Shown: positions 14,605 through 63,310 of the stretch, one piece after another
Layout of the letters: every line of letters starts with the position of its first letter
Numbering within the stretch: the stretch's first letter is position 1
Assembly: GCF_000522985.1 (NCBI RefSeq)
Contig: NZ_CP007130.1
Location: forward strand, 1-64,000
Reading direction: 5' to 3'
Length of the DNA stretch: 64,000 nucleotides
DNA from: Gemmatirosa kalamazoonensis
Lineage (GTDB): Bacteria > Gemmatimonadota > Gemmatimonadetes > Gemmatimonadales > Gemmatimonadaceae
The notes under the pieces: model-generated
Told to the model about the DNA's origin: nothing
Database searches by the model: none
Seen by the model: only the letters and a program-made list of their open reading frames with translations
Made by a program: the position numbers and the translations under genes

Positions 14605-17003
14605 TCGCACGTCGGGTGCTTCGCGCACCGCCACACCGCCTCCGCGGGTACGGCCGTCGCGTCCGGCGTGACCCACCGCTCGAGCACCACGCCGCCGCAC
14701 TTCGGGCACCCCGCCTTCCGCCGCCGCGCGCCGACGGGGAGGCGGAACCGGCACTTGCGGTCCTCGCACGCGTAGAACGGCGCGCCCGCCGCCGGATCGT
14801 CGGGCGTGAGGATCCCGAGCTTCGCCGCGCCGCACTTCGGGCACGTCTTGTCCGTCGCCTCGCGCCGGAGCGCCGCCTTCTTCGATCCCGCCGTTCGCGC
14901 TGCCGCTTTCGATGCCGCCTTCTTCGATTCCGCCGTTCCCGTCCAGTCGGCATACGTGCACGGATCGGGGTCCGCCCCGTACCGCACGCATCCCCAGAAC
15001 GGCGCCTTCTTGCCGATCTTCTTCTCGATGAGCGCCGAGCCGCACGTGGGGCACGCGCCGGGGCGCACCTTCGCGCGCACGTCGCGCGTCATGCGGCACG
15101 CGGGACACGCGAGGAAGCTCCCCTTGCCGGTCTTGCGCGCGATCTTGCGGTAGTTCGCCTCGCCGCATCGGTCGCAGCGCGTCGTCGTCTCCTCGCCGCG
15201 CCCGCCGCCGGTGCCATCGGCGCGCCCGCGCGCGCGCAGCCCGTGGGCGGCGCGGTACTCGGCGCCTAACGCGTGCGCCCGCCGCATCGCCTCGCGGAAC
15301 GCGTCGTACCACGCGCGCAGGTACGTCGGGCGCGTCGCGTCGCCGCGCTCGATCGCGTCGAGCTGGCCCTCCATGTCGGCCGTGTAGCGCTCCGTGACGA
15401 GCTCCGGAAACGCGTGCGACAGCAGACCGTCGACCTGCATGCCGAACTCGGTCGGCTGCAGGAACTTCTTCCCGCGTCCGCCGGCGATCTCCTGCACGTA
15501 CTGCCGCTCCAGCAGCGTCGCGATGATGCTCGCGAACGTCGCCGGCCGGCCCACGCCGCTCGTCTCGAGCTTCTTGATCAGCGCGCCCTGGTCGTAGCGG
15601 CTTGGCGGCGTCGTCTGCTTCTCGTGCACGAGCAGGTCGGTCGGCGACAGCACCTGCGCCGGGGCGAGCGCGGGCAGCTCCACGTCCTCCTGCCGTGTGT
15701 ACGGGCCCCAGAACACGAGGAACCCCGGGTCGCGCAGCACCGACCCCTCGGCCGCCCACGGCACCGGGCCGGAGTCGATCATCACCGTCGTGCGGTCGAA
15801 CGTGGCCGGCTTCGACTGCGACGCGAGGAAGCGCGCGCGGATCATGTCGTAGAGCTGCTTCGCCTGGGCCGGCGCGCTCTCGCCGTTCGGCGCGAGCTTG
15901 GTCGGACGGATCGCCTCGTGCGCGTCCTGCGCGCCGGCCTTCGCGCGCGCGCGCGGCGCGCTCGGGGGGAGTGCCTCGGGATGGTGCGCGCCGATGAACG
16001 CGCGCGCCATGTCCACCGCCTCGTCGCCGACGCGCGTCGAGTCGGTGCGGTGATACGTGATCATCCCCGCCTCGAACAGCGCCTGCGCCGCGTCCATCGC
16101 CTGCTTCGCCGAGAGCCGCAGCTTGCGGCTGGCGTCCTGCTGCAGCGTCGACGTCGTGTACGGCGGCGGGGGGCGCCGCTCGGTGCGACGCGCCTCCACG
16201 CTCCGTACCTGGTGCGCGTGCCTGCGCGACTCGGCGAGGGTGGCCTCGGCTTCCTCGCGCGACGCGAACTGCTTCGGGACGAGGCGGGACTCTGGACTCG
16301 GGACTCGGGACTCGTCCCCCCCGAGTTCCGAGTCCCGAGTCCCGAGTCCAGAGTCCTGCGCGGCGGGGACGAACGCCGTGAACCCCTCGGCGTACTGCGC
16401 CTCGAGCGTCCAGTACGTCCGCGCGGCGAACGCCAGGATCTCGCGCTCGCGCTCGCACAGCATGTGCAGCGCCGGCGTCTGACAGCGGCCCGCGCTCTGC
16501 GCCCCCGCCGGCCAGCAGATCTCCTTCGAGCAGTCGAAGCCGACGATGCGGTCGAGCACGCGCCGCGAGCGCTGCGCGTCGACGCGCCGTGCATCGATGG
16601 CACGCGGCTGCGCGACGGCGCGCTTGACCGCGCTCTCGGTGATCTCGCGGAACTCGATGCGCGACGACGCGCGCGCCGGGAGGCCGAGCCGCTTCGCGAG
16701 GTGCCACGCGATCGCCTCGCCCTCGCGGTCGGGGTCCGAGGCGAGCAGCACCGCGTCGAAGCGCCCCGCCTTCACGTCGCCCTTCAGCGCCTTCACGACG
16801 TCGGCGCCCTTGCCGCGCAGCACGTACGACTCCTCGAGCGTGGCGAGGTCGACGCCGTACTCCTTCGGCGGCAGGTCGGCGATGTGGCCGAACGACGCCT
16901 TCACGACGTAGTCGGAGCCGAGGAACGAGGCGAGCTTCTTCGCCTTGTTCGGCGATTCGACGATGACGAGAGTGCGGGGCACGACGGAGCTGCGGTGGGC
17001 CAT
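14571..17003 (-). CDS. topA: DNA topoisomerase I (type IA)
   Basis: 810 residues. The Toprim domain starts RTLVIVESPNKAKKL and carries SDPDREGEAIAWHL. The active-site tyrosine is Tyr317 in MITYHRTDSTRV, followed by DAHEAIRPT and GVGRPATFASI. The C-terminus holds four or five Cys4 zinc-ribbon repeats (CDRCG, CPTCG, CPKCG twice) plus a Lys/Ala-rich linker. It relaxes negative supercoils. The oddity is residues ~212-241, between FTAFVPA and KQFASREEAEAT. This stretch is rich in Asp, Ser, Arg and Pro and is encoded exactly by a near-perfect inverted repeat (16285-16358). It falls between conserved core blocks, presumably in a surface loop, and keeps the frame. Confidence 0.97.
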   Translation of the reverse strand: MAHRSSVVPRTLVIVESPNKAKKLASFLGSDYVVKASFGHIADLPPKEYGVDLATLEESYVLRGKGADVVKALKGDVKAGRFDAVLLASDPDREGEAIAWHLAKRLGLPARASSRIEFREITESAVKRAVAQPRAIDARRVDAQRSRRVLDRIVGFDCSKEICWPAGAQSAGRCQTPALHMLCEREREILAFAARTYWTLEAQYAEGFTAFVPAAQDSGLGTRDSELGGDESRVPSPESRLVPKQFASREEAEATLAESRRHAHQVRSVEARRTERRPPPPYTTSTLQQDASRKLRLSAKQAMDAAQALFEAGMITYHRTDSTRVGDEAVDMARAFIGAHHPEALPPSAPRARAKAGAQDAHEAIRPTKLAPNGESAPAQAKQLYDMIRARFLASQSKPATFDRTTVMIDSGPVPWAAEGSVLRDPGFLVFWGPYTRQEDVELPALAPAQVLSPTDLLVHEKQTTPPSRYDQGALIKKLETSGVGRPATFASIIATLLERQYVQEIAGGRGKKFLQPTEFGMQVDGLLSHAFPELVTERYTADMEGQLDAIERGDATRPTYLRAWYDAFREAMRRAHALGAEYRAAHGLRARGRADGTGGGRGEETTTRCDRCGEANYRKIARKTGKGSFLACPACRMTRDVRAKVRPGACPTCGSALIEKKIGKKAPFWGCVRYGADPDPCTYADWTGTAESKKAASKAAARTAGSKKAALRREATDKTCPKCGAAKLGILTPDDPAAGAPFYACEDRKCRFRLPVGARRRKAGCPKCGGVVLERWVTPDATAVPAEAVWRCAKHPTCDYEAAWVSSVA
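16285..16358. repeat. Fold-back element inside topA (H2, heptamer CGGGACT)
   Basis: Left arm 16285-16314 and right arm 16329-16358 are reverse complements at 29 of 30 positions, with a 14-base loop containing a C7 run. Each arm is a tandem array of the 7-base word CGGGACT (one copy reads CTGGACT, mirrored on the other arm). Read on the topA strand it adds about 25-30 residues without a stop. It is the only member of the window's fold-back family that lies wholly inside a core coding region. Confidence 0.9.
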
Positions 17004-32709: not shown

Positions 32710-32784
32710 ACCGCAGAGGACGCAGAGGACGCAGAGGAAACCGCCGGAAAGGTTCTCCGCTGCGTCCTCTGCGTCCTTCGCGGT
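32710..32784. repeat. Fold-back element (H4, nonamer GCAGAGGAC)
   Basis: Arms 32710-32740 and 32754-32784 match at 27 of 31 positions around a 13-base loop. Each arm carries tandem copies of the 9-base word GCAGAGGAC. It exactly fills the space between the lactonase stop and the GTG of the next gene. Substitutions (positions 6, 7, 26 and 30 of the arm) make it less perfect than the elements at 35.3 and 60.4 kb. Confidence 0.9.
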
Positions 32785-35240: not shown

Positions 35241-36680
35241 ATGGCTCTTCCTTTCGTTTCGGACAGGATGAACAGGATGGAGAGGATGACCAACGGCACC
35301 AACACCAACAGCAAAGGCACTGCTGTTGGTGTTGGTGCCGTTGGTCATCCTGTCCATCCTGTTCATCCTGTCCGAACGAAGCGCACCAGCATCCTGTCGC
35401 TTCTCTTCGCGCTGGTCATCCTGTCGAGCAGCGCGGCCGGCGCGCAGAACGCCCCGCCGTCGGTGGTGGCCGGCATCCCGGTCAACTACGACGAGGCGAA
35501 GGTCGGCACGTACACGCTCCCCGACCCGCTCGTGCTGAACGACGGCACGCGGGTGCGCGACGCGATGACCTGGTGGGTGCGGCGGCGCGACGAGGTGCTG
35601 CGGCTGTTCGAGACGAACCAGTTCGGGCGCGCGCCCGGCCGACCGCCGGGCATGCGCTTCGAGCTGCTCGACTCGGCCACGACCACGTTCGACGGCTACG
35701 CGACGCGTCGGCAAGTGCGCATCCATCTCGCGCCGGGGAACGAGCGCCCGTTCGTCGACGTGCTGCTCTACGTGCCGCGCGGCCTCCGGGCGCGCGTCCC
35801 CGTGCTGCTCAACGTGAGCTTCTCGCCGAACCGCAGCACCGTGGTCGACAGCGGCATCGTCGGCGGCGACTCGTCGTGGGCGCGTGACGGCAAGCGCGTG
35901 GCGGCGCCGCCCGCCGGCCGCGGCGCGTTGAACCCGCGCCCGTTCCTCGCGCAGGGGATCGGCGTCGCCACCGTGTACTACGGCGACATCGATCCCGACT
36001 TCGCGGGCGGGCTGCCGTACGGCGTGCGCGCGGCGTATCTCAAGCCCGGGCAGACGACCGTCGCGCCGGACGCGTGGGGCGCGATCGCGGCGTGGGCCTG
36101 GGGGCTGAGCCGCGTCATGGACTACCTCGAGACCGACCCCGACGTCGACGCGAGGAAGGTGGCGCTCGTCGGCGTGTCGCGGCTCGGCAAGACGGTGCTG
36201 TGGGCCGCCGCGCGCGACGAGCGGTTCGCGCTCGTGATCGCGAGCTGCTCGGGCGAGGGCGGCGCGGCGCTCAGCCGGCGCGACTACGGCGAGACGGTGG
36301 CGCACATCACGCACCCGACGCGCTACGGCTACCAGTTCGCCGGCAACTACGCGACCTACGCGAGCCGCGTCGACTCGCTCCCGATGGATGCGCACATGCT
36401 GCTCGCGCTCGTCGCGCCACGTCCGGTGCTGCTGCAGACGGGCGACACCGACTTCTGGTCCGACCCCAGGGGCGAGTTCCTCGCCGCGGTCGCGGCGGAG
36501 CCGGTGTTCAACCTGTTGGGCGCGCGCGGGCTCGACACGAAGGAGATGCCGCCGGTGGGGACGGCGATCTTGCACACGTTAGGCTGGTACGAGCACGCCG
36601 GCGGCCACGGCACGATCCCGTCGGACTGGGACGTGTTCCTGCGCTTCCTCCGGCTGCACTTCCAGGGCGTCGCGCCGTGA
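35241..36680 (+). CDS. Secreted alpha/beta-hydrolase, glucuronoyl-esterase-like (CE15-type)
   Basis: 479 residues if started at the ATG at 35241 (GGAG at 35227-35230). The nucleophile sits in GVSRLGKTV (Ser313), matching the CE15 glucuronoyl methylesterase signature G-C/V-S-R-x-G-K, and the fold landmarks [24 protein letters not shown] and YYGDIDPDF fit. The first ~40 codons are encoded by an almost perfect inverted repeat (35258-35376). A normal signal peptide, [19 protein letters not shown], comes only after it, and there is no ATG or GTG between repeat and signal. So translation must start in or before the repeat, giving an odd Met/Asn/Thr-rich then His-Pro-Val-rich leader. Confidence 0.8.
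35258..35376. repeat. Fold-back element (H5, 56-base arms, words ACAGGATGA and CCAACA)
   Basis: Arms 35258-35313 and 35321-35376 match at 55 of 56 positions around a 7-base loop, the longest near-perfect palindrome in the window. The outer half of each arm is three near-copies of the nonamer ACAGGATGA. The inner half is a second array based on ACCAAC/CACCAA. It lies within the 5' coding end of the esterase gene. The element at 39.3-39.5 kb uses the same outer word. Confidence 0.93.
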
Positions 36681-39324: not shown

Positions 39325-39480
39325 CAGGATGCCGGGCGCTCTTCTTTGGACAGGATGACAGGACGGACAGGATGAGAACCTCTTCTAAGAGAGAGCAACT
39401 GCAACAGCCTTCTTGGTGTTGTTCATCCTGTCCGTCCTGTCATCCTGTCTGAACGAACGGCAGCCCGTCCTGTCCATCTT
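39319..39480. repeat. Fold-back element (H6, same word family as H5)
   Basis: A core pair of 27-base perfect arms (39349-39375 and 39423-39449) is made of GACAGGATGA-type words. Weaker outer pairs are GATGACAGGATGCCGGGC near 39320 against CCCGTCCTGTCCATC near 39465. The 47-base centre contains further partial pairing. It fills the gap between the fucosidase and the zinc dehydrogenase. Outer word and flank (TTCATCCTGTCC then GAACGAA) are shared with H5, so the two are copies of one family. Confidence 0.88.
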
Positions 39481-44130: not shown

Positions 44131-44268
44131 CTCCACGTACGAGTTCTCGTGGGACTGAAGAAGGACTGAAGGAGGACTGAAGCAGGACAACAACAAAGAA
44201 GTTGTGGTTGGTCCTTCTTCAGTCCTCCTTCAGTCCTTCTTCAGTCCTGACGAACCACGTACGTGGAG
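44131..44268. repeat. Fold-back element (H7, 11-mer GACTGAAGGAG, family with H14)
   Basis: A symmetrical 138-base palindrome. Terminal 11 bases CTCCACGTACG are perfect, an imperfect stretch follows, and a 30-base perfect block of tandem GACTGAAG(A/G)AG copies mirrors on the other arm (44153-44182 against 44217-44246). It lies between convergent ThuA and DUF4349 genes. The element at 63170-63310 has the same ends, the same word and an almost identical right arm. Confidence 0.93.
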
Positions 44269-45323: not shown

Positions 45324-45425
45324 GAGAGGGCAGGAGGGCAGGAGGGCAGGAGGGCAGGAGGGCAGGAGACCGTCGTGGCTCTCCTGCCCTCCTGCCCTCC
45401 TGCCCTCCTGCTCTCCTGCCCTGTC
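45324..45425. repeat. Fold-back element (H8, octamer GGGCAGGA)
   Basis: Arms 45324-45368 and 45381-45425 match at 43 of 45 positions around a 12-base loop. Each is about five tandem copies of the 8-base word GGGCAGGA. The right side carries two further copies up to 45445, ending one base before the stop codon of the next minus-strand gene. Pure word arrays on both arms make this the clearest case of word plus mirror construction. Confidence 0.93.
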
Positions 45426-49208: not shown

Positions 49209-50684
49209 GTGACGACGAACGCGCGTGCCCCCGAAGCACCGGCCCTCACTCCGCGCGGCGTCGCGCCGCTCGTGCTGCACCCGGACCGCTACTTCGATCC
49301 GGATCCCGCCATTCGCCGCGTCGCGCGCGCGCTGTACGAGGAGACGCACGCGCTACCGCTGATCTGCCCGCACGGCCACGTCGATCCGGCGATCCTCGCC
49401 ACGAACGCGCCGTTCCCCGAGCCGACCGCGCTGCTGCTCGTTCCGGATCACTACATCTTCCGGATGCTCTACTCCCAGGGCGTGCCGCTCGACGCGCTCG
49501 GCATCCCGACGGTCGACGGGAGCACGGTGGAGACCGACGCGCGGAAGATCTGGCGGCTGTTCGGGAGCCACTACTACCTGTTCCGCGGCACCCCCACGGG
49601 GATCTGGCTCGACAACGAGCTGCACGACGTGTTCGGCGTGCGCGTGAAGCTCTCCGCGGAGTCCGCCGACCGGGTGTACGATGAGATCGCCGAGAAGCTC
49701 GCGAGCCCCGAGTTCCGGCCCCGCGCGCTGTTCGAGCGATTCGACATCGAGGTGCTCGCCACCACCGACGCGGCGAGCGACCCGCTGCCGCATCACCAGG
49801 CGATCCGGGCGAGCGACTGGGCGTACGGCGCGCGTCGCGTGGTCCCCACGTTCCGCCCCGACGCGGTGCTGCGGATCGCGCGCCCGTCGTGGCCGCACGA
49901 GCTGGCGGCGCTGGCGCGGGCGCACGGCGCGCCGATCACGTCGTTCGAGGCGTTCCTCGCCGCGCTCGCCGAACGCCGGCGCTACTTCCAGACGCTCGGC
50001 GCGACCGCCACCGACCACGCGGTGCTCGAGCCGTGGACCGCGCGCCAGACGCCGGAGACGATGGAGGCGCTCTTCCAGCAGGCGCGCCGCGGCGAGGCGA
50101 CCGCGGCCGACCAGCGCACGTTCGAGGCGCACCTCTTGATCGAGCTGGCCCGGCTCTCGACCGAGGACGGGCTCGTGATGCAGCTCCATCCGGGCAGCTG
50201 GCGCGACCACAACGCGCCGATCGCCGCGCGCTACGGCCCGGACAAGGGCGCCGACATCCCGGTGGCCACCGAGTACACGCGCAACCTCCAGGCGCTCCTG
50301 GCCGCGCACGGCAACGATCCGCGGCTGACGCTGATCCTGTTCACGCTCGACGAGACGACCTACGCGCGGGAGCTGGCGCCGCTGGCGGGGCACTATCCGG
50401 CGCTGAAGCTCGGGCCGGCGTGGTGGTTCCACGACAGCCTGGAGGGGATGCGGCGCTACCGGGAGCAGGTGACGGAGACGGCGGGGGTCTACAACACGGT
50501 GGGGTTCAACGACGACACGCGGGCGTTCTGCTCGATCCCGGCGCGGCACGATCTGGCGCGGCGCGTGGACGCGAACTGGCTCGCCGGGCTCGTCGCGCGG
50601 CATCAGCTCGACCTCGCCGACGCCCGCGAGCTCGCCCGCGCCCTCGCTTACGACCTCGCGAAGCAGACGTACAAGTTCGGGTAG
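49209..50684 (+). CDS. uxaC: Glucuronate/galacturonate isomerase UxaC
   Basis: 491 residues from a GTG at 49209 (GGAG at 49203). UxaC is a metal-dependent amidohydrolase-fold enzyme that turns D-glucuronate into fructuronate and D-galacturonate into tagaturonate. Landmarks are LICPHGHVDP (HxH-type ligands), IFRMLYSQGVPLDALG, IEVLATTDAASDPL, HPGSWRDHN and LKLGPAWWFHDSLEGMRRYREQ, with a closing GFNDDTRAFCSIPARHD. Length fits (~470 plus a short N-terminal tail). It gives the locus a uronate entry point, matching the two GH28 pectin enzymes downstream. A 152-base gap with a long inverted repeat follows. Confidence 0.95.
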   Translation: MTTNARAPEAPALTPRGVAPLVLHPDRYFDPDPAIRRVARALYEETHALPLICPHGHVDPAILATNAPFPEPTALLLVPDHYIFRMLYSQGVPLDALGIPTVDGSTVETDARKIWRLFGSHYYLFRGTPTGIWLDNELHDVFGVRVKLSAESADRVYDEIAEKLASPEFRPRALFERFDIEVLATTDAASDPLPHHQAIRASDWAYGARRVVPTFRPDAVLRIARPSWPHELAALARAHGAPITSFEAFLAALAERRRYFQTLGATATDHAVLEPWTARQTPETMEALFQQARRGEATAADQRTFEAHLLIELARLSTEDGLVMQLHPGSWRDHNAPIAARYGPDKGADIPVATEYTRNLQALLAAHGNDPRLTLILFTLDETTYARELAPLAGHYPALKLGPAWWFHDSLEGMRRYREQVTETAGVYNTVGFNDDTRAFCSIPARHDLARRVDANWLAGLVARHQLDLADARELARALAYDLAKQTYKFG

Positions 50685-50699
50685 AGGCGATGGGCGTCA

Positions 50700-50820
50700 G
50701 GCGAGTACCTCCGGGATTCGACGGCGATCTGCTTGGATCTCGCGATAGCTTTCAGCCCTGCGCGTCTCGCCTCTATCGCGAGATCCTTCGATCGCCGTCC
50801 GATCCCCATGTGTAGTCGCC
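50700..50820. repeat. Fold-back element (H10, family with H12)
   Basis: Arms 50700-50747 and 50774-50820 pair, with perfect blocks ACGGCGATC and GGATCTCGCGATA and a one-base indel. The shared word begins GGCGAGTAC and includes ACGGCGATC and GGATCTCG; the same blocks build H12. The 26-base loop includes CGTCTCGCCTC. It separates uxaC and the GH28 gene and leaves almost no other spacer. Confidence 0.88.
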
Positions 50821-50836
50821 TCGGCCCTGAGTCCCG

Positions 50837-52429
50837 ATGCCCTCGCTGACAGGTTGGCTGCCGCTTCTGCTGATCGCCGCTCCGTTAGGCGCCCAGCCCG
50901 CATCGCGCGCGTTCGACGTTCGCACGTTCGGCGCGACCGGCGACGGACACACGATCGACAGCGACGCGATCAACAGGGCCATCGACGCCGCCGCGGCCGC
51001 GGGCGGGGGCACGGTGTATCTCGGTGCCGGCACGTACGCGAGCTATTCGGTGCGGCTCAAGAGCCACGTCGCGCTCTACCTCGATCGCGGCGCGACGCTG
51101 CTCGCCGCGGACACCGCGAACGGCCGCGGCTTCGACGCGGCGGAGCCGGGACCCGGCAACGAGTACCAGGACTACGGCCACAGCCACTGGCACAACTCGC
51201 TGATCTGGGGCGAGGACGTCGAGGACGTGTCGATCGTCGGGCCGGGGCGCATCGACGGGAAGTCGCTCAACCGCGGCATCAGCCGCGACACGCCGCACGT
51301 CGGCAACAAGGCGATCGCGCTGCTGCGCGCGAAGAACGTACTGCTGCGCGATCTCACGATCTATCGCGGCGGCCACTTCGGCGTCCTCGCCACCGGGGTC
51401 GACAACCTCACGATCGACAACCTCACGATCGACACGAACCGCGACGGCATCGACGTCGACGCGTGCCGCAACGTGCGGATCTCGAACACGAGCGTGAACT
51501 CGCCGAACGACGACGCGATCGTGCTGAAGGCATCGTACGCGCTCGGCGCCACCCGCGGCACCGAGAACGTCACCCTCACGAACAGCGTCGTGACCGGGTT
51601 CGCCGTCGGCTCGGTGCTCGACGCCACGTACCGGCCGTTCACCGACGGTGCAGCGAACCGCGACGGGCCGACGGGGCGCGTGAAGCTGGGCACCGAGTCG
51701 AACGGGCCGTTCCGCAACATCACGATCTCCAACATCGTCTTCGACAACTCGCGCGGCCTCGCGCTGGAGTCGGTCGACGGGTCGATCATCGAGGACGTGA
51801 CGGTGACGAACCTCACCATGCGCCACGTCTTCACGTCGCCGATCTTCCTGCGGCTCGGCTCGCGCATGCGCGGCCCGAAGGAGCTGCCGGTCGGCACGCT
51901 GAAGCGCGTCACGATCAGCAATGTCGTCGCCTCCGACGTCGACCCGCGCTACGCGTCGACGATCACCGGCCTGCCGGGGCACGCGGTGGAGGACGTGACG
52001 CTGCGCGACGTGCGCATCGTCTACCGCGGCGGCCTGTCGCTGGAGACCGCAGCGAAGCAGCCGTCCGACATGGTGCGCTCCGGGGAGCGCGGCGGCGGTG
52101 GTCCGCGCAGCGATCCGTACGCCGTGGCGGAGCAGGAGAAGGTCTACCCGGAGCCGAGCATGTTCGGCATCGTGCCGGCGTCGGCGTTCTACGTGCGGCA
52201 CGTGACGGGGCTCACCATGGACGGCATCGACGTGAGCTTCGAGCAGCCCGACACGCGACCCGCGTTCGTGCTCGACGACGTGCACGACGCCGAGTTCCGC
52301 GGCGTGCACGCGCCGAAGATCGCCGGCACGCCGACGTTCGTGCTGCGCGGCGTGAGCGACTTCCGCACGTTGTTCTCCCGGCCGGTCGCGGACACGTACG
52401 TGAAGCAGACGACGTCGAAGAGCTTCTGA
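50837..52429 (+). CDS. Glycoside hydrolase family 28 protein (pectin-lyase fold), secreted
   Basis: 530 residues with a signal peptide (WLPLLLIAAPLGAQPA). The right-handed parallel beta-helix begins FDVRTFGATGDGHTIDSDAINRAID, as in polygalacturonases. The active-site region NRDGIDVDACRNV followed by NDDAIVLK carries the catalytic aspartates of GH28. Many short repeat strands (NVTLTNSVV, NITISNIVFD) follow. The likely substrate is galacturonan or rhamnogalacturonan. It is followed by a second GH28 gene with a fold-back element between. Confidence 0.88.
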   Translation: MPSLTGWLPLLLIAAPLGAQPASRAFDVRTFGATGDGHTIDSDAINRAIDAAAAAGGGTVYLGAGTYASYSVRLKSHVALYLDRGATLLAADTANGRGFDAAEPGPGNEYQDYGHSHWHNSLIWGEDVEDVSIVGPGRIDGKSLNRGISRDTPHVGNKAIALLRAKNVLLRDLTIYRGGHFGVLATGVDNLTIDNLTIDTNRDGIDVDACRNVRISNTSVNSPNDDAIVLKASYALGATRGTENVTLTNSVVTGFAVGSVLDATYRPFTDGAANRDGPTGRVKLGTESNGPFRNITISNIVFDNSRGLALESVDGSIIEDVTVTNLTMRHVFTSPIFLRLGSRMRGPKELPVGTLKRVTISNVVASDVDPRYASTITGLPGHAVEDVTLRDVRIVYRGGLSLETAAKQPSDMVRSGERGGGGPRSDPYAVAEQEKVYPEPSMFGIVPASAFYVRHVTGLTMDGIDVSFEQPDTRPAFVLDDVHDAEFRGVHAPKIAGTPTFVLRGVSDFRTLFSRPVADTYVKQTTSKSF

Positions 52430-52437
52430 GCGTGTCT

Positions 52438-52515
52438 CACGCGGAGCCGTGGAGAACGCGGAGCACACCGACATGAAGACCTGGCCGTTCTCCGCGTTCT
52501 CCGCGGCTCCGCGTG
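52438..52515. repeat. Fold-back element overlapping the GH28 start (H11, family with H13)
   Basis: Arms 52438-52467 and 52486-52515 match at 27 of 30 positions around an 18-base loop. The word is GCGGAGAAC (nonamer-like), shared with H13. The loop contains the likely ATG (52473) of the second GH28 gene, and the right arm encodes the following residues of its signal peptide (FSAFSAAPR). Confidence 0.9.
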
Positions 52516-53918
52516 CGATGCTCGTCGGCGCGCTCGTGACGCAGGTCGCGCGCGCCGATGACCTGCCGGCATGGGCGTCGAAGGTCGGCACGCGGCGGCA
52601 TCCGGTCGCGACGCGCGTCTGCTCGGCGAACGCGCGCGGCGCGGTCGGTGACGGGGCCACGAAGTCCACCGCGGCGATCCAGCGGGCGATCGACGAGTGC
52701 TCGGCGGCCGGCGGCGGCGTGGTGCGGTTCGACGCGGGGAGCTACGTCACCGGCGCGCTGTTCGTGAAGCACGACGTCGAGCTGCGCGTCGACTCGGGCG
52801 TCACGCTGCTCGGCAGCCAGGACGACGCGGACTATCCCGTCATGCCAACGCGCGTCGCGGGGATCGAGATGCCGTGGCCCGCGGCGCTCATCAACGTGAA
52901 CGATCAGCGCAACGTGAAGATCGCCGGCCGCGGCACGATCGACGGGCGCGGGCAGAAGTGGTGGGACAAGTACTGGACGCTGCGCCGCTCGCTGTACGAG
53001 CCGCAGGGGCTGCGCTGGGCGGTGGACTACGACGCGCAGCGCGTACGCCTCGTGGTCGTGTCGCGCTCGTCGGACGTCACGATCGAGGAGGTGAACCTTC
53101 GTCGCTCGGGCTTCTGGACGGTGCAGCTGCTCTATTCGGATCACGTCACGGTCGACGGCATCAGCATCGCCGACAACGGCGGGCCGAGCACCGACGGCGT
53201 CGACATCGACTCGTCGGAGTGGGTGCTCGTGCAGCGCACCGACATCGCGAACAACGACGACACGATCTGCCTCAAGGCCGGGCGCGACGCCGACGGGCTG
53301 CGCGTGAACCGGCCGACGCAGTACGTCGTCATCCGCGACAACGTGGCGCGGAAGGGCGCCGGCGTCGTGTCGTTCGGCTCCGAGACGTCGGGGAGCATCC
53401 GCCACGTCGTCGCGCTGAACAATCGCGGCACGGGGACGAACGCCGGCATCATCTTCAAGTCGGCGCGCACGCGCGGCGGCGTGGTGGAGGACGTGCTGGT
53501 GCGCGGCCTCGTGCTGGAGAACGTGCCGACCGCGTTCTCGTTCACGCTCGACTGGAACCCGAGCTACAGCTACGCGACGCTGCCGAAGGACTCGACGAAC
53601 GTTCCGGCGCACTGGCGCGTGCTCGCGACGCCGGTGACGCCGGCCGAGCGCGGGCTGGCCGAGTTCCGCGACATCACGATCGAGCACGTGCGCGTGACCG
53701 GAGCGCGTCGCGTGTTCGTCGCCGCCGGGCTCCCGTCGAAGCCGATCCACGACGTACGCTGGCGCGACGTGCAGGCCGAGGGGCAGGCCGCAGGCAGCAT
53801 CGAGTGGGCACGCGGCTGGACGATGACCGACGTGACCGTGCGCGCGGCCGACGGCCAGCCCGTGCGCATCACCAACAGCGAGCGGGTGCAGGCGCCCGCA
53901 GGAGACGGCACGCGATGA
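52473..53918 (+). CDS. Polygalacturonase-type glycoside hydrolase family 28, secreted
   Basis: 481 residues from the ATG at 52473. The signal MKTWPFSAFSAAPRAMLVGA ends near QVARADD; its first half is encoded by the loop and right arm of a fold-back element. An alternative ATG at 52518 just after the arm would give a short signal. The helix core shows AVGDGATKSTAAIQRAIDEC, GRGTIDGRGQKWWDKYW, and the GH28 catalytic set GGPSTDGVDIDSS, NNDDTICLKAG and GVVSFGSETSGSI. It likely cleaves homogalacturonan or rhamnogalacturonan backbones. Its stop overlaps the NIPSNAP start. Confidence 0.9.
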   Translation: MKTWPFSAFSAAPRAMLVGALVTQVARADDLPAWASKVGTRRHPVATRVCSANARGAVGDGATKSTAAIQRAIDECSAAGGGVVRFDAGSYVTGALFVKHDVELRVDSGVTLLGSQDDADYPVMPTRVAGIEMPWPAALINVNDQRNVKIAGRGTIDGRGQKWWDKYWTLRRSLYEPQGLRWAVDYDAQRVRLVVVSRSSDVTIEEVNLRRSGFWTVQLLYSDHVTVDGISIADNGGPSTDGVDIDSSEWVLVQRTDIANNDDTICLKAGRDADGLRVNRPTQYVVIRDNVARKGAGVVSFGSETSGSIRHVVALNNRGTGTNAGIIFKSARTRGGVVEDVLVRGLVLENVPTAFSFTLDWNPSYSYATLPKDSTNVPAHWRVLATPVTPAERGLAEFRDITIEHVRVTGARRVFVAAGLPSKPIHDVRWRDVQAEGQAAGSIEWARGWTMTDVTVRAADGQPVRITNSERVQAPAGDGTR

Positions 53919-54712
53919 CGCTCTCGCGTCGGAGATTTCTCGAGTCGGCCGCCGCGGGGGCGGGGGCCGGACTGTTAGGCACCGCGGCCGGCGCGCAGTC
54001 CGCCGAGGGGCGCGACTACTACGAGCTGCGTGCGTACCATCTGCGTCGCGGCCCGCACGAGCGGGCGATGAGCGACTACGCGCGCGACGCGCTCGTTCCC
54101 GCCCTGCGGCGCGCCGGCACGGGGCCGGTCGGCGTGTTCAACGTCGCGATCGGTCCCGACTCGCCGACGCTGTACGTGCTCATCACGCACCCGACGATGG
54201 ACTCCGTGGCGACGCTCCCCGAGCGGCTCGCGGCCGACACGGAGTACCGGCGCGCCGGCGCCGCCGTCCTCGACGCGCCCGCCGCGGACCCGCCGTACGA
54301 GCGGATCGAGAGCTCGCTCATGGTGGCGTTCGCCGGCCACCCGCGGCTGGCGCTGCCGCCGCAGCTCGCGGCGGGGAAGGGGCGGCTGTTCGAGCTCCGG
54401 CGCTACGAGAGCCACAGCGAGCCCGCGAGCGCGACGAAGATCGACGTGTTCAACCGGTGGGAGGCCGCCATCTTCGCGCGGCACTCGATGCACGCGGTAT
54501 TCTACGGCCAGACGATCGTCGGGGCGAAGATGCCGAACCTCACGTACCTGCTCGCGTTCGACGACATGCGCGACCACGACGCGCGGTGGGGCGAGTTCGG
54601 GTCCGATCCGGAGTGGCGCGCGATCGCCGCGAAGCCGGAGTACGCCGATCCCGCGATCGTATCGAGCATCAGCAACGTGTTCCTCAGGCCGACGGCGTAC
54701 TCGCAGATATGA
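53915..54712 (+). CDS. NIPSNAP-family protein with Tat-like signal (second copy)
   Basis: 265 residues, ATG in an overlap with the GH28 stop, GGAG ribosome site. SRRRFLESAAAGAGAGLLG is a twin-arginine-type signal. YYELRAYHLRRGPHERAMSDY, LYVLITHPTMDSV, LFELRRYESHSEPASATKID and NLTYLLAFDDMRDHDARWGEF are the two NIPSNAP repeats, parallel to the protein at 48314. Coupling to a polygalacturonase suggests both NIPSNAPs serve extracytoplasmic uronate/pectin metabolism, but no reaction can be proposed. A fold-back element follows 17 bases after its stop. Confidence 0.85.
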   Translation: MTLSRRRFLESAAAGAGAGLLGTAAGAQSAEGRDYYELRAYHLRRGPHERAMSDYARDALVPALRRAGTGPVGVFNVAIGPDSPTLYVLITHPTMDSVATLPERLAADTEYRRAGAAVLDAPAADPPYERIESSLMVAFAGHPRLALPPQLAAGKGRLFELRRYESHSEPASATKIDVFNRWEAAIFARHSMHAVFYGQTIVGAKMPNLTYLLAFDDMRDHDARWGEFGSDPEWRAIAAKPEYADPAIVSSISNVFLRPTAYSQI

Positions 54713-54729
54713 AAGGGTGATGGCGACGA

Positions 54730-54811
54730 GGCGAGTACTCTGGGGATCCAAGTGCGATCGAAAGGATCTCGAGATCCCGTTCATCGCCGTCGGATCCCCA
54801 GGGTACTCGCC
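54730..54811. repeat. Fold-back element (H12, no loop, family with H10)
   Basis: Two 41-base arms (54730-54770 and 54771-54811) meet with no loop and match at about 32 of 41 positions. The ends GGCGAGTAC/GTACTCGCC and the centre GGATCTC/GAGATCC are perfect. The words GGGGATCC, GCGATC and GGATCTCG are those of H10. It lies between a NIPSNAP and a sugar isomerase gene. Confidence 0.88.
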
Positions 54812-54846
54812 GAGCGCCTCGAACCAATCCTTGGAGGACAGCCGTG

Positions 54847-55764
54847 ATGGATCGTCGCCAGTTCGTGACCGCCCTCGGCACGACGCTCGCCGCGGGGTGC
54901 GTGCACCGGACATCGGCATCGCCGTCGTCCGGACGGGCGCCGTTGTCGTTCTCCACGCTCGGCTGCCCGAACTGGACGTGGGCGCAGATCCTCGACTTCG
55001 CCAAGACGCACGAGTTCGCGGCGATCGAGCTGCGCGGCATCCAGCAGGAGATGGATCTCACGCAGCGCCCCGAGTTCGCCCCCGCGCGTCTCGCGCAGTC
55101 GAAGCGTGAGGTCGCCGACCACGGGCTGCGCATCGCGTGCCTCGGCTCGTCGGCCGAGATGCACGTGCCGGAGAGCCCGCGGCGCACCGCGTGGCTCGAC
55201 GAGGGCCGGCGGTTCATCGACCTCGCGCACGCGCTCGACGCGCCGTACGTGCGGGTGTTCGGCAACAAGTGGGTCGCGGGCGAGGAGCGCGACCGCACGC
55301 TCGACCGGGTCGCCGCGGGGCTCCGCACGTTGGGCGACCACGCGAAGGGCTCGGGCGTGACCGTGGTGCTGGAGACGCACGGCGACTTCACCGACTCGCC
55401 GACGATCGTCGACATCATGCACCGCGCCGACTCGCCCACGGTCGCGCTGCTCTGGGACGCGCACCACACGTTCGCGTTCTCGCACGAGGATCCGGAGGCG
55501 ACCGCGCGGCAGCTCATGCCGTGGGTGCGGCACGTCCATCTCAAGGACTCCGTGCCGGCGGGAAGCGATCGACGCTACGTGCTCACGGGCCGCGGCGACG
55601 TGCCGGTGCGCGAGCAGGTCGAGGTGCTCGTGCGTCACGGCTACCGCGGCTACTACAACTTCGAGTGGGAGAAGCGCTGGCACCCGGAGATCGAGGAGCC
55701 CGAGGTGGCGTTCGCGCAGTACGCGCAGGCCGTGCGCGAGTACCTCCGCGGAGCGCGCGCCTGA
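54847..55764 (+). CDS. Sugar phosphate isomerase/epimerase family lipoprotein/Tat protein
   Basis: 305 residues from the ATG at 54847 (GGAGG at 54833). MDRRQFVTALGTTLAAGC has both twin-arginine and lipobox character. The TIM barrel shows LSFSTLGCPNWTWAQILDFA, FAAIELRGIQQEMDL, DAPYVRVFGNKWVAGEE, TVVLETHGDFTDSPTIVDI, ALLWDAHHTFAFSHEDPEA, VRHVHLKDS and YYNFEWEKRWHPEIEEPE. This is the third xylose-isomerase-like protein here, and like the one at 46247 it appears exported. A histidine kinase gene follows two bases after its stop. Confidence 0.87.
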   Translation: MDRRQFVTALGTTLAAGCVHRTSASPSSGRAPLSFSTLGCPNWTWAQILDFAKTHEFAAIELRGIQQEMDLTQRPEFAPARLAQSKREVADHGLRIACLGSSAEMHVPESPRRTAWLDEGRRFIDLAHALDAPYVRVFGNKWVAGEERDRTLDRVAAGLRTLGDHAKGSGVTVVLETHGDFTDSPTIVDIMHRADSPTVALLWDAHHTFAFSHEDPEATARQLMPWVRHVHLKDSVPAGSDRRYVLTGRGDVPVREQVEVLVRHGYRGYYNFEWEKRWHPEIEEPEVAFAQYAQAVREYLRGARA

Positions 55765-55766
55765 CG

Positions 55767-57890
55767 ATGCCCGACGGCACGACGCTGCTGGCCGAGCGTC
55801 TCCGCGCCGCGTTCGAGCAGACGCCGGTCAGCACGGTGGTGTACGACGCGAGCGGGCGGCCGCTCGCCGTGAACCCGGCGTTCGAGCGTCTGTGGGGTGC
55901 GGCGCTGTCGGACGTGCCGGCGGAGTACTCGGTGCTCGCCGATCCGCAGCTCGAGGCGGCGGGCGTGCTCCCGCTCATCCGCCGCGCCTTCGCCGGCGAC
56001 GCCGTCACGCTCCCGGCGCTTCGCTACGAGATGGCGAGCACGGTGGGGCGCGGCCGCGTGCTGTGGACGCAGGCGCATCTCTATCCCGTGCGCGGCGCGT
56101 CCGGCGCCGTCGAGCAGGTCGTGCTCACGCACGAGGACGTGACGGCGCGCCACGAGGCGGAGGAGGCGCTGGCAGAGGCGGCGGCGACCGCGCGCCGGCA
56201 GCAGGCGCTCAGCGCGGCGCTCGCCGTCGCGTCCACGGTGGCCGACGTGGCCGCGGCGGTGGTGGAGCACGCGACCGCCGTGTTAGGCGCCACCGGCATC
56301 GTCATCGCGCGGCTCACCGAGCGCGGCGACGAGATCGAGATCGTGCGCGCCGGGGCGATGCCCGACGACGTGCGCGACACGTGGCGCCGCTTCCCGATCG
56401 GCGCACCGGTGCCGATCGCCGACGTCGCGCGCACGGGCATCCCAGTGTTCCTCGAATCGCGCGACGACTGGGCGACACGCTACCCCGACCTCGCGCCGAC
56501 GCTGGAGGCGCTCGGCCAGCACGCGAACGCGGTGATGCCGCTCGTCGCGGACGGCCGCGTGCTCGGCGTGCTCGGCGCCGCGTACGACGCGCCGCAGCGG
56601 TTCGACCACGACGCCCGCGCACGCGCCGGCGCCGTCGCGCTGCAGTGCGCGCAGGCGCTCGAGCGCGCGCGGCTGTTCGAGGCGGAGCGCGCCGCGCGCG
56701 CCGAGGCGGAGGCGGAGCGGGAGCGGCTGAACACCGTGCTCGCGCAGCTGCCCGTCGGGGTGGTGATCGTGGAGGCGCCGTCGGGACGCATCACGGCCGC
56801 GAACGAGGCGGTGGAGCGCATCTGGGGGCAGCGCCCCGCCACCGCCTCGGTCGAGCGCTACAGCAACGAGTGGACCGGCTTTCACGCCGATGGCCGGCGG
56901 CTCGCGTCCGAGGAGTGGCCGCTCGCGCGCGCCCTGCGCGGCGGCGAGCGCGTCATCGGCGAGACGGTGGAGATCGAGCGTCCCGACGGCGGCCGCGCGC
57001 TGCTCGACGTCAGCGCCGAGCCGGTGCGCGACGCGACCGGGCGCGTGACCGCCGCCGTCGCCGTGCTCGTCGACGTCACCGCACGCGTGCGCGCTCGGCG
57101 CGAGATGGAGCGGCTGCTGCACGAGAGCGAGCGGGCGCGCGCCGACGCGGAGGCCGCGCGCGGGGCGGCGCACGCCGCGAACCAGGCGAAGGCGCAGTTC
57201 CTCGCCGTCATGAGCCACGAGCTGCGCACGCCGCTGAACGCGATCGGCGGCTACGCGGAGCTCCTGGAGCTCGGCATCCGCGGGCCGGTGACGCGCGAGC
57301 AACTCGAGGACCTGCGCCGCATCCAGCAGAGCCAGCGGCATCTGTTAGGCCTCATCAACGACGTGCTGAACTACGCGCGCATCGAGGCCGGAGCGGTGCA
57401 CTACGACGTCGCCGCCGTGCACGTCGCCGAGGCGCTCGCCGCGGCGGAGGCGCTCGTGATGCCGCAGGCGAGCGCGAAGGGGCTCACGCTCGTCACCACG
57501 GGCTGCCCGCGCGACGAGCTGCTCGTGCACGCGGACGCGGAGAAGCTGCGGCAGGTGCTCATCAACCTGCTGTCGAACGCGGTGAAGTTCACCGACCGCG
57601 GCGGGCGTGTTGAGCTCGACTGCGACGCGACGGACGACGTGGTGCGCGTGCGGGTGCGCGACACCGGCGTCGGCATCCCGGCGGACAAGCAGCGCTCGAT
57701 CTTCGAGCCGTTCGTGCAGGTGCGCGCGGATCTCACGCGCACGGCCGAAGGCACGGGGCTCGGCCTCGCGATCAGCCGCGACCTCGCGCGCGGCATGGGC
57801 GGCGATCTCACGGTGGCGAGCGCGGTCGGCGAGGGCAGCACGTTCACGCTGACGCTTCCGCGAGCGTGGAGCGTCGAGCGTGGAGCGTAG
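55767..57890 (+). CDS. PAS-GAF-PAS hybrid sensor histidine kinase
   Basis: 707 residues. PAS 1 (~10-130) has TPVSTVVYDASGRPLAVNPAF; GAF (~140-310) starts AALAVASTVADVAAAVVEHA and includes PVFLESRDDW; PAS 2 (~325-440) has LPVGVVIVEAPSGRITAANE; a coiled coil leads to the dimerisation domain with SHELRTPLNAIGG, whose His484 is the phosphorylation site. The ATPase has INLLSNAVKFTDRG (N box), DTGVGIPADK (G1), FEPFVQV and GTGLGLAISRDLARGMGGD. No transmembrane segment or receiver domain is seen, so a cytoplasmic sensor with an unlinked regulator is expected. Its last residues (SVERGA) and stop lie inside a fold-back element. Confidence 0.93.
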   Translation: MPDGTTLLAERLRAAFEQTPVSTVVYDASGRPLAVNPAFERLWGAALSDVPAEYSVLADPQLEAAGVLPLIRRAFAGDAVTLPALRYEMASTVGRGRVLWTQAHLYPVRGASGAVEQVVLTHEDVTARHEAEEALAEAAATARRQQALSAALAVASTVADVAAAVVEHATAVLGATGIVIARLTERGDEIEIVRAGAMPDDVRDTWRRFPIGAPVPIADVARTGIPVFLESRDDWATRYPDLAPTLEALGQHANAVMPLVADGRVLGVLGAAYDAPQRFDHDARARAGAVALQCAQALERARLFEAERAARAEAEAERERLNTVLAQLPVGVVIVEAPSGRITAANEAVERIWGQRPATASVERYSNEWTGFHADGRRLASEEWPLARALRGGERVIGETVEIERPDGGRALLDVSAEPVRDATGRVTAAVAVLVDVTARVRARREMERLLHESERARADAEAARGAAHAANQAKAQFLAVMSHELRTPLNAIGGYAELLELGIRGPVTREQLEDLRRIQQSQRHLLGLINDVLNYARIEAGAVHYDVAAVHVAEALAAAEALVMPQASAKGLTLVTTGCPRDELLVHADAEKLRQVLINLLSNAVKFTDRGGRVELDCDATDDVVRVRVRDTGVGIPADKQRSIFEPFVQVRADLTRTAEGTGLGLAISRDLARGMGGDLTVASAVGEGSTFTLTLPRAWSVERGA

Positions 57891-57952
57891 AGCGTAGAGC
57901 GGGGAGAAGACGTCGCTCCACGCTCTACGCTCTACGCTCTACGCTCAACGCT
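57863..57952. repeat. Fold-back element holding both stop codons of convergent genes (H15, heptamer GAGCGTA)
   Basis: Arms 57863-57903 and 57912-57952 (41 bases, about 5-6 mismatches, 8-base loop) are tandem copies of the 7-base word GAGCGTA/GAGCGTG. The kinase stop TAG (57888-57890) is in the left arm, and the stop of the convergent cupin gene (57951-57953) is at the end of the right arm. It could act as a bidirectional terminator. Confidence 0.9.
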
Positions 57953-60340: not shown

Positions 60341-60360
60341 CGTCTCACGAGGCTGTGTGG

Positions 60361-60444
60361 TCTCACGCGGAGGCGCGGAGAACGCGGAGAACACCAACGA
60401 CCAAGCAGTGGTGTTCTCCGCGTTCTCCGCGCCTCCGCGTGAGA
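60361..60444. repeat. Fold-back element, perfect 36-base arms (H13, family with H11)
   Basis: Arms 60361-60396 and 60409-60444 are perfect reverse complements (36 of 36) around a 12-base loop. The word is GCGGAGAAC, as in H11, with which it shares CACGCGGAG at the outer end. It lies between the GH97 start and the stop of the upstream minus-strand gene, six bases from that stop. Confidence 0.95.
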
Positions 60445-60450
60445 CAGCTT

Positions 60451-63132
60451 TCATCGGGTGATGCGCAGCAGCTCCGCCTCCGTCCACGGCTTCTTGCGGC
60501 CGGCCGTCGCGGCGCGGATCTCCTTCACCTGCGTCGGCTCGATCGGGTCCGCGTCGTTCCCCCACGAGCGCCGCACGTAGGTGAGCACGTTCGCCACCTG
60601 CTCGTCGGTCAGCGTGCCGCCGATGGGGGGCATGAGCATCTCGCCCTCCTTGCCGTTCAGCACGATGCGGATGAGCCTAACGGGAGTGCCGAGCACGAAG
60701 CGCGAGCCGACGAGCGGCTTCGCGACGCCGGCGAGGCCGCCGCCGTTCGCCTGGTGGCAGCCGGCGCACGTCGACGTGTACTGCTGCCGCCCGGCCTCGT
60801 AGCGCGCCTGCTCGTCCGCGGTGAGCGCGCGGGCCGCCGGCGCGGCGGCGCCGCCCTTGCCGGGCCACGTGAGCGCGTCGGCGACGGCGCGGGCCTGCGC
60901 GCGGATCGCGCTGTCCGGGCTCTCCGCCGCCGCGAGGAGCGCCGCAGGTCGGTTAGGCAGCGCGATCGGTGGCGCCGCCGTCGGACGTGGTGGCCCCTCG
61001 GGCGCCGCGCCGCTCGCCGCGCCGCCCGCCGCGGCACCGGCCGGCGGCTCGAAGCTCGGCCGCGGTCCACGCGGCGCCCGCTGTCCACTGCGCGGGTTCG
61101 CGCCGGTGAGCAGCGCGAGCCGCTGCCAGCGCGGGCGCGACGGCTGGCCGGCGAGCGTGAGCAGCCGGCCGATCGCCGCCGCGTCGCGGGAGCGCACGAT
61201 CGACGCCGCGATCGACTGCACCGCGGCGGCGTGCTCGCCGCGCGTCGCGAGCAGCTTCTCGAGGAACGCCGTCTCGCGTCCGCGCACCGCGCCGGCGACG
61301 AGGTCCGTCACGATCGGGTCGTCGCCGTAGCGGCTCGCCACCGTCACGAGCGCGGCGTCGCGCCGCGTCGCGGTGAGCTCGCCGAGCGACGCCGCGAGCT
61401 GGCGGCGGACGAGCGGCGTGCGGTCGTCGGCGAGGCGCAGCACGGCGTCCTGCAGCGGGTGCGACGCGCGCGCGAGCCACGGCTCGCTGATGCGCACCGC
61501 CGCCGCGCGCACGTACGGCGACGAGTCGGCGAGCGCGGTTTCGATCGTCAGCGGGTCCGACTCGCCGAGCCCGTCGAGCGTCCACAGCGCGTGCAGCCGC
61601 GCGCGGTCGTCGCGATGCGAGCGGATCATCGCGCGCAGCGCGTCGGCCACCGAGCGGTCGCCGCGCTCCACGAGCAGCTGCTGCGCCTTGAAGCGCCACC
61701 ACCCGTTCGGGTGCGCGAGCAGCGGCACGAGGTCGGCCGCCGACGCACGCGACAGCTGCGGCGCCGGCCCGCGCTGGGTGCTCGTGTGCACGATGCGCCA
61801 GATGCGGCCGAGGCCGACCGGCTGCTCCATGCCGCGCTCGCGGATCTTCTGCTCGAGGTAGTCGGTGATGTACGCGCGGTGCTGGATGATGCCCCGGTAC
61901 ATGTCGACGACGTACAGCGTGCCGTCGGGCGCCGACGAGAGGTTGACGGGGCGGAACCGCTGGTCGCTCGCCGTCATGAAGTCGGCGCGCTCGTACGCCT
62001 TGCGCGCCCGCGCGAAGCCGTCGCCGCTGTCCTCGATGACGAACCGCGCGACGAGGTTCCCCGCCGGCTCCGTGACGAACACCGACCCGCGCAGCTCGTC
62101 AGGCAGCCGGTCGCCGACGTACACCGTGGGGCTGCCGGCGGACGTGAACATCGCGAGCGAGCTGTCGCCGCGGAGCACGCCCTCGCGGTAGCCGCGGTTC
62201 ACGGCGGGTGTCTTGTGGTCGGGCCACACCGACGTGTTGCGCGTCACCTGCTCGTACACGCCGCGCCGCAGCCCGGCGTTGCCGCCGCGCGCCGCGTAGT
62301 GCTCGGGGATGTAGTCGGTGCGGAGCGGGTCCTCGTTGCTGTTGCGGAACAGTCGCCCGTAGTCGTCCGACGACACGCCCCACTGGCCTTCCTCCGGCGC
62401 CGGGCGGAACGCGAACGAGCCGTCGGGCTGCAGACGGAACTCGCCCGCGTAGTTCGCGTTGTGCAGCCAGTTGTCGAGACCCCACAGCAAGCCGTTCGCG
62501 TTGTGCTCGGGGTTGGAGCTGAGCGTGCCGTAGTCGCCGCGCACGAGCGTGCGCACGTCGGCGCGCAGGTCGGCGTTCGTGTCACGCGCGAAGTACAGGT
62601 TCGGCGGCGCGCCCACCAGCACGCCGTGCTGCATGACCTTGATGGTGCGCGGCAGCACGAGGCTGTCGAGGAACACGGTCTTGCGGTCCATGACGCCGTC
62701 GTCGTTCGTGTCCTCGAGCACGACGACGCGCCCGATCGGCCGGTCCTCGCCCTTGCCGTCGATGTTCGGCATGAACGCGCGCATCTCGACGACGTACATC
62801 CGCCCGTCGGCGTCGAAGTCGATCGCGACCGGATCCTGCACGAGCGGCTCCGCGGCCACGAGCTCGGCCCGGTAGCCGTCGACGAGCCTGAACGTGCGCG
62901 CCTCGTCCTGCGGCGACCGCACCGGCGTCACGCCAGTGTCGACGTACAGCGCCGCGAGCGGGTTCGCGGCGGGCGCCGGTGGCGCGGTGGACGCCGGGGT
63001 CGGCATGGCCGCGGCTGGCGCGGCGGCGGGCGCGGGTTGCGGCACCGGCTCGTGCCGGCAGCCGACGAGCAGCGACGCGACGAGCAAGGCTCCGCCGAAC
63101 GGGCCGGAGCGGAACGACATCTCCATCTTCAT
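60451..63132 (-). CDS. Propeller/HEAT/cytochrome c lipoprotein (PVC-type membrane-bound dehydrogenase family)
   Basis: 893 residues from the ATG at 63132 (alternatives 63126 and 63120). Lipobox SLLVGCRHE, then an Ala/Pro linker. Residues ~80-450 form a six-bladed propeller of the soluble-dehydrogenase type: GYRAELVAAEPLVQDPVAID, FDADGRMYVVEMRAFMPNID, EDTNDDGVMDRKTVFLDSL, NGLLWGLDNWLHNANYAGE and SAPDGTLYVVDMYRGIIQHR. Helical HEAT-like repeats follow (~480-780). The C-terminal ~100 residues are a class I cytochrome c with heme site CAGCH and PPIGGTLTDEQVANVLTYVR. It probably oxidises a sugar or alcohol and passes electrons to a periplasmic carrier. Confidence 0.88.
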   Translation of the reverse strand: MKMEMSFRSGPFGGALLVASLLVGCRHEPVPQPAPAAAPAAAMPTPASTAPPAPAANPLAALYVDTGVTPVRSPQDEARTFRLVDGYRAELVAAEPLVQDPVAIDFDADGRMYVVEMRAFMPNIDGKGEDRPIGRVVVLEDTNDDGVMDRKTVFLDSLVLPRTIKVMQHGVLVGAPPNLYFARDTNADLRADVRTLVRGDYGTLSSNPEHNANGLLWGLDNWLHNANYAGEFRLQPDGSFAFRPAPEEGQWGVSSDDYGRLFRNSNEDPLRTDYIPEHYAARGGNAGLRRGVYEQVTRNTSVWPDHKTPAVNRGYREGVLRGDSSLAMFTSAGSPTVYVGDRLPDELRGSVFVTEPAGNLVARFVIEDSGDGFARARKAYERADFMTASDQRFRPVNLSSAPDGTLYVVDMYRGIIQHRAYITDYLEQKIRERGMEQPVGLGRIWRIVHTSTQRGPAPQLSRASAADLVPLLAHPNGWWRFKAQQLLVERGDRSVADALRAMIRSHRDDRARLHALWTLDGLGESDPLTIETALADSSPYVRAAAVRISEPWLARASHPLQDAVLRLADDRTPLVRRQLAASLGELTATRRDAALVTVASRYGDDPIVTDLVAGAVRGRETAFLEKLLATRGEHAAAVQSIAASIVRSRDAAAIGRLLTLAGQPSRPRWQRLALLTGANPRSGQRAPRGPRPSFEPPAGAAAGGAASGAAPEGPPRPTAAPPIALPNRPAALLAAAESPDSAIRAQARAVADALTWPGKGGAAAPAARALTADEQARYEAGRQQYTSTCAGCHQANGGGLAGVAKPLVGSRFVLGTPVRLIRIVLNGKEGEMLMPPIGGTLTDEQVANVLTYVRRSWGNDADPIEPTQVKEIRAATAGRKKPWTEAELLRITR

Positions 63133-63169: not shown

Positions 63170-63310
63170 CTCCACGTACGAGTGTGGGTGGGACTGAAGC
63201 AGGGACTGAAGGAGGACTGAAGAAGGACCAAACAATGCTTTCTTGCGGGTGGTCCTTCTTCAGTCCTCCTTCAGTCCTTCTTCAGTCCTCCAATAAGAAC
63301 GTACGTGGAG
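63170..63310. repeat. Fold-back element (H14, 11-mer GACTGAAGGAG, copy of H7)
   Basis: A 141-base symmetrical palindrome with ends CTCCACGTACG/CGTACGTGGAG, tandem GACTGAAG-AAG/GAG words and a right arm nearly identical to H7 (about 39 consecutive bases the same). Centre near 63240. It separates the cytochrome lipoprotein from the GH78-like gene; the 63133-63326 gap contains nothing else. Confidence 0.93.

Follow-up and report, generated by a model that had tools for sequence, protein, structure and literature searches.

A hairpin repeat copy at the junction of two GH28 genes

The fold-back at positions 52435-52518 (+ strand) belongs to a hairpin repeat family that is built of CGCGGAG units and dispersed through the genome in at least 100 copies. 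We consider it reasonably likely, at a probability of about 0.6, that this stop-adjacent copy marks a junction at which the next GH28 gene lost its native 5' end and acquired accidental substitutes from the element. The window (the whole 64,000-nt stretch of Gemmatirosa kalamazoonensis DNA analyzed) is part of a 1,040,503-base contig of a 7.48 Mb genome, whose other contigs have 5,311,527 and 1,106,233 bases. The element begins 5 nt after the stop codon (52427-52429) of an upstream GH28 gene (50837-52429, + strand), and overlaps the start of a second gene (52473-53918, + strand) for a secreted GH28 (polygalacturonase-like) protein (Pfam PF00295, E = 5.9e-20; 67% identity to its orthologue).

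The initial annotation had described a palindrome at the polygalacturonase start, with an ATG in its loop and signal peptide residues encoded in its right arm, and our analysis confirmed this arrangement. The left arm (TCTCACGCGGAGCCGTGGAGAACGCGGAGCAC, 52435-52466, + strand) contains a single T where the repeat family has C. It is 91% complementary to the right arm (GTTCTCCGCGTTCTCCGCGGCTCCGCGTGCGA, 52487-52518, + strand), each arm being 32 nt long, and the 20 nt between them (52467-52486, + strand, read from the sequence) form the apical loop that contains the ATG at 52473. The predicted RNA fold of the element region had an energy of -71.2 kcal/mol, compared with -43.0 ± 3.7 kcal/mol for shuffled sequences (z = -7.7; 0 of 200 shuffles). 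Residues 6-14, FSAFSAAPR, are specified in frame by the right arm (52488-52514, + strand). The alternative ATG (52518-52520, + strand), said to follow the arm immediately, does adjoin the arm end, but overlaps the final base of the right arm.

The right arm is followed by TGCTCGTCGGCG, which lacks the T run of an intrinsic terminator. No Rfam family was matched in positions 50001-56000 at gathering scores, and a plasmid collection was matched neither by this locus nor by the second copy of the repeat in the window.

Copies of the repeat in the genome

A search for the arm motif TTCTCCGCGNCTCCGCG, allowing at most one mismatch, gave 101 + 99 matches in the genome and 0 for the reversed-pattern control; a second arm motif gave 126 + 116 matches, compared with 2 + 7 for its control. 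The family thus comprises about 200 arm motifs, equivalent to roughly 100-120 elements. The window contains four occurrences of the arm motif (0.62 expected) and a second copy at 60360-60445 (- strand), which has 37-nt arms with 100% complementarity and is located 6 nt after the stop codon of the minus-strand gene 60451-63132. The locus at 52435 had been presented as a second independent case of a fold-back at the start of a secreted enzyme gene; if the first case was the copy at 60360-60445, the two are members of one family, and the claim of independence fails.

We paired and read 63 copies, namely those listed first by the search, mostly chromosomal and with good arms. These comprise 39 simple copies (≤90 nt) and 24 longer ones, and the loop of most of the longer copies contains another palindrome, for example GCAGAGGACGCAGAGG and its complement, resulting in nested palindromes. 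The inner palindrome family is itself frequent (184 + 173 genome matches; control, 1 + 1). Concentric arrangements, with GCAGAGG-unit or GGGGATCC-type palindromes inside CGCGGAG-unit loops, were seen at L024/L025, L001, L015, L203, L231 and other loci. At arm position 10, which is variable, the two arms agree in 45 of the 63 copies (21 expected), which indicates joint inheritance or correction of the arms and rules out independent change of the two.

Fold-backs of other families were also found in the window, at 16287-16359, 32710-32784, 35258-35376, 39349-39449, 44152-44247, 45327-45422, 54730-54811, 57870-57952 and 63203-63277. Their units include GGACTGAAG, AGGGCAGG, GACAGGATGA, GCAGAGGAC, GAGCGT and GGACTCG, and most follow the same plan, in which one arm consists of tandem units and the other is the complement. 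A literature search with the arm sequences returned nothing relevant, the matches covering ACAGAGGACACAGAG alone in unrelated vertebrate studies, a result that does not in itself prove the family to be undescribed.

Placement of the repeat behind stop codons

To locate the copies relative to genes, we called genes with our own 3-periodic Markov model in 586 kb around the copies. No called gene is overlapped by 53 of the 63 sampled copies. Among the 61 copies for which the distance could be measured, a stop codon is at most 15 nt away from 44 and at most 35 nt away from 55, with a median distance of 9 nt; random placement in the same intergenic gaps would bring about 20% and 31% of copies within these distances. 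Between co-directional genes, the upstream stop is closer than the downstream start for 33 of 37 copies, and the mean relative position of 0.26 was reached in 0 of 10,000 uniform placements. Part of this concentration may simply reflect selection against insertion into coding or promoter sequences. Among non-internal fold-backs of other families, 31 of 57 across all sampled loci have a stop no more than 35 nt away.

With its position 5 nt after the stop at 52429, the focal copy is best seen as a 3'-end element of the upstream GH28 gene. The placement of the family behind stop codons, which the initial annotation had missed, explains the position of the element better than a role in starting translation.

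The repeat resembles the REP/REPIN/BIME sequences of E. coli and Pseudomonas, which are likewise short, high-copy extragenic palindromes often found just past stop codons; high copy number and a mostly extragenic location both apply here. Work cited in PMC12306157 has reported that, in E. coli, a REP no more than 15 nt from a stop codon causes ribosome stalling and reduced translation of the gene upstream. The preferred distance of the present family from stop codons is compatible with that ribosome-stalling distance. By analogy with REPs, the main target of the hairpin may be the upstream gene. As RNA, it would most likely behave on the upstream cistron like a stop-adjacent E. coli REP, impeding terminating ribosomes or 3' exonucleases, and it would reduce rather than increase initiation on the downstream cistron.

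The family differs from REPs and REPINs in that its arms consist of CGCGGAG units, its loops often contain other palindromes, and identical arms occur in distant phyla. A search of the G. kalamazoonensis genome for the Y1 (REP-type) transposase domain (PF01797) gave no match, while control genomes did match. At the base of the palindrome, a GTAG/CTAC tag was present in 1 of 63 copies and CGTC in 17 of 63, and there is accordingly no conserved REP tag. Bacterial MITEs are similar in being short dispersed inverted repeats without genes; flanking direct repeats of 2-8 nt were no more frequent than in shuffled sequences, so a target-site duplication, and with it a MITE, is not supported.

The start of the downstream GH28 gene

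The only close orthologue of the downstream gene outside its own genome, among 395 genomes of the phylum, was found in G367 (67% identity, E = 1.5e-195), a draft genome of 480 contigs and 85% completeness, in which a different gene, on the opposite strand, lies upstream of the orthologue. Homologues within the family are ~30-40% identical and were left out of the start comparison. The orthologue begins MRNRVRGLALLGALAFAGGAGAQVPGSDLPADFPAW, with its own signal peptide MRNRVRGLALLGALAFAGGAGA of 22 residues containing three arginines. The comparison with orthologues proposed in the initial annotation drew on this single sequence, which has neither the FSAFSAAPR residues nor the palindrome. The orthologue (L267:5185-7734) forms one 849-residue frame with a long C-terminal extension absent from the focal protein.

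Read from 52518, the focal gene gives MLVGALVTQVARADDLPAW, and its match to the G367 orthologue begins only inside the hydrophobic core. Compared with this orthologue, the focal gene thus lacks the native start and the arginine-rich n-region, and the element-encoded MKTWPFSAFSAAPR is the only charged n-region available to it. GGAG at 52460-52463 (+ strand), 9 nt before the ATG at 52473, is the sole Shine-Dalgarno core with correct spacing; no core fits 52449 or 52518. Because such a core is present in only 29% of called genes (9% of random positions), the argument that it provides for 52473 is of moderate weight. We infer that the ATG at 52473-52475 (+ strand) is a likelier start than 52518.

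Since the native start and n-region are absent downstream of it, the element probably supplies a replacement start, Shine-Dalgarno sequence and n-region, and to that extent the earlier proposal that a fold-back supplies the 5' coding end is upheld. The encoded FSAFSAAPR equals the family consensus and so shows no sign of selection at the protein level.

A different reading is that translation starts at 52518, leaving the element untranslated and the right-arm frame open by chance only. Our own gene model scores 52518 above 52473 as a start, and most reading frames run open through the element. Further relevant observations come from two sibling copies. The copy at 60360 reads FSAFSAPPRETTQPRET ahead of a complete signal peptide, MRLRSIRCAASLALAAATAGAQ, downstream of the element, and the copy at L209 reads MSVVFSAFSAAPRETHNATDAL ahead of an intact signal peptide, MMRLAIVPLGAALVLAAGHA, located after the element. 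In both, FSAFSA-PRET is in frame before the intact native signal peptide, which indicates that the longest frame is spurious in these copies and that such read-through usually is. Gene callers can be expected to push starts into open, G+C-rich repeats of this kind, which calls for caution. A start at 52518 would, however, fall inside the hydrophobic core and leave a signal peptide, MLVGALVTQVARA, of ~13 residues without a charged n-region, compared with 22 residues in the orthologue; it would also lack a Shine-Dalgarno sequence, and the codon is predicted to be paired (probability 0.94). We regard initiation at 52518 as possible, though rather unlikely.

Predicted effect of the hairpin on initiation

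The initial annotation had proposed that the loop exposes the start codon for preferential initiation and that the stability of the stem sets the rate, in effect a selected switch controlling translation of the polygalacturonase. The ATG at 52473 is indeed predicted to be unpaired (paired probability 0.05), in a hairpin much stronger than those of shuffled sequences. The GGAG core that serves it is, however, fully paired in the stem (predicted probability 1.00), which speaks against both preferential initiation and control of this kind: once folded, the hairpin should impede de novo initiation, unless the stem is opened by another process. Moreover, the family is found behind stops and not at starts, the orthologue has no palindrome, and in only 2 of the 39 simple copies (the focal copy and that at L209, the latter with its intact signal peptide further on) does a long frame run from a loop ATG into the gene downstream. 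A selected switch is thus very improbable.

The buried Shine-Dalgarno core and the missing native start and n-region would also fit a gene with a damaged 5' end that is poorly expressed or becoming a pseudogene. The remaining frame is, however, intact over its full length, with 67% identity to the orthologue and normal coding statistics, and we judge this outcome unlikely.

In the reading that we prefer, a repeat copy sits directly 3' of the upstream GH28 gene, and a rearrangement or insertion at this site would have taken away the ribosome-binding site, start and charged n-region of the downstream GH28 gene. The element would then have provided accidental substitutes, namely the left-arm GGAG, the ATG of the variable loop, and MKTWPFSAFSAAPR as the n-region.

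Rickettsia palindromic elements are likewise palindromic repeats from which proteins gain residues. The present family differs from these in that most sampled copies lie outside coding sequence; the focal copy is located at the very 5' end of a gene, with a peptide that bears no mark of selection.

Occurrence of the repeat in other bacteria

To examine the wider occurrence of the repeat, we searched with the 27-base arm TCACGCGGAGNCGCGGAGAACGCGGAG, which was found in at least 119 stretches of named genomes. The taxa include Verrucomicrobia, Lentisphaerae, Spirochaetes, Thermoanaerobaculia, Holophagaceae, Planctomycetaceae, Bacteroidetes, and Alpha-, Beta- and Deltaproteobacteria. Occurrence in its own phylum is patchy (7 of 298 genomes). 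A strict test detected a palindromic partner within 450 nt in 39 of 131 cases; inspection by eye revealed several others. In other phyla, 10 of 42 palindromic copies (24%) have a stop at most 15 nt away, compared with 12% under the null, a weak trend based on cruder gene calls.

Overlap with a single gene is of modest interest. The repeat family is of greater interest, being REP-like and stop-adjacent without a REP transposase, with nested palindromes and with arms identical across many phyla, and it raises the questions of how the hairpins spread and whether the upstream gene is tuned. As a tentative and rather doubtful suggestion, the family may spread without a REP transposase or target-site duplication and settle behind stops, where a copy is occasionally co-opted as a ribosome-binding site, start or n-region. 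Within this suggestion, spread would perhaps occur by hairpin-templated copying, which would also nest palindromes in each other's loops.

Two related genomes, G060 and G061, have a full fold-back and a short remnant without the apex, respectively, at the same locus (L061 and L254; flanks 89-90% identical), directly after a TAA stop. Comparison of the pair shows gain or loss of the inner part of the element. When an empty site was sought within the genus to which G060 belongs, the sister genome G061 was found to contain this apex-deleted remnant instead.

In two Chthoniobacterales contigs (L077:1813 and L085:7637), the start of a homologous gene (MKELDDITGAIVDAA) is closely preceded by a single arm ending in GCGGAGGA. 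This half-element may provide a conserved Shine-Dalgarno sequence.
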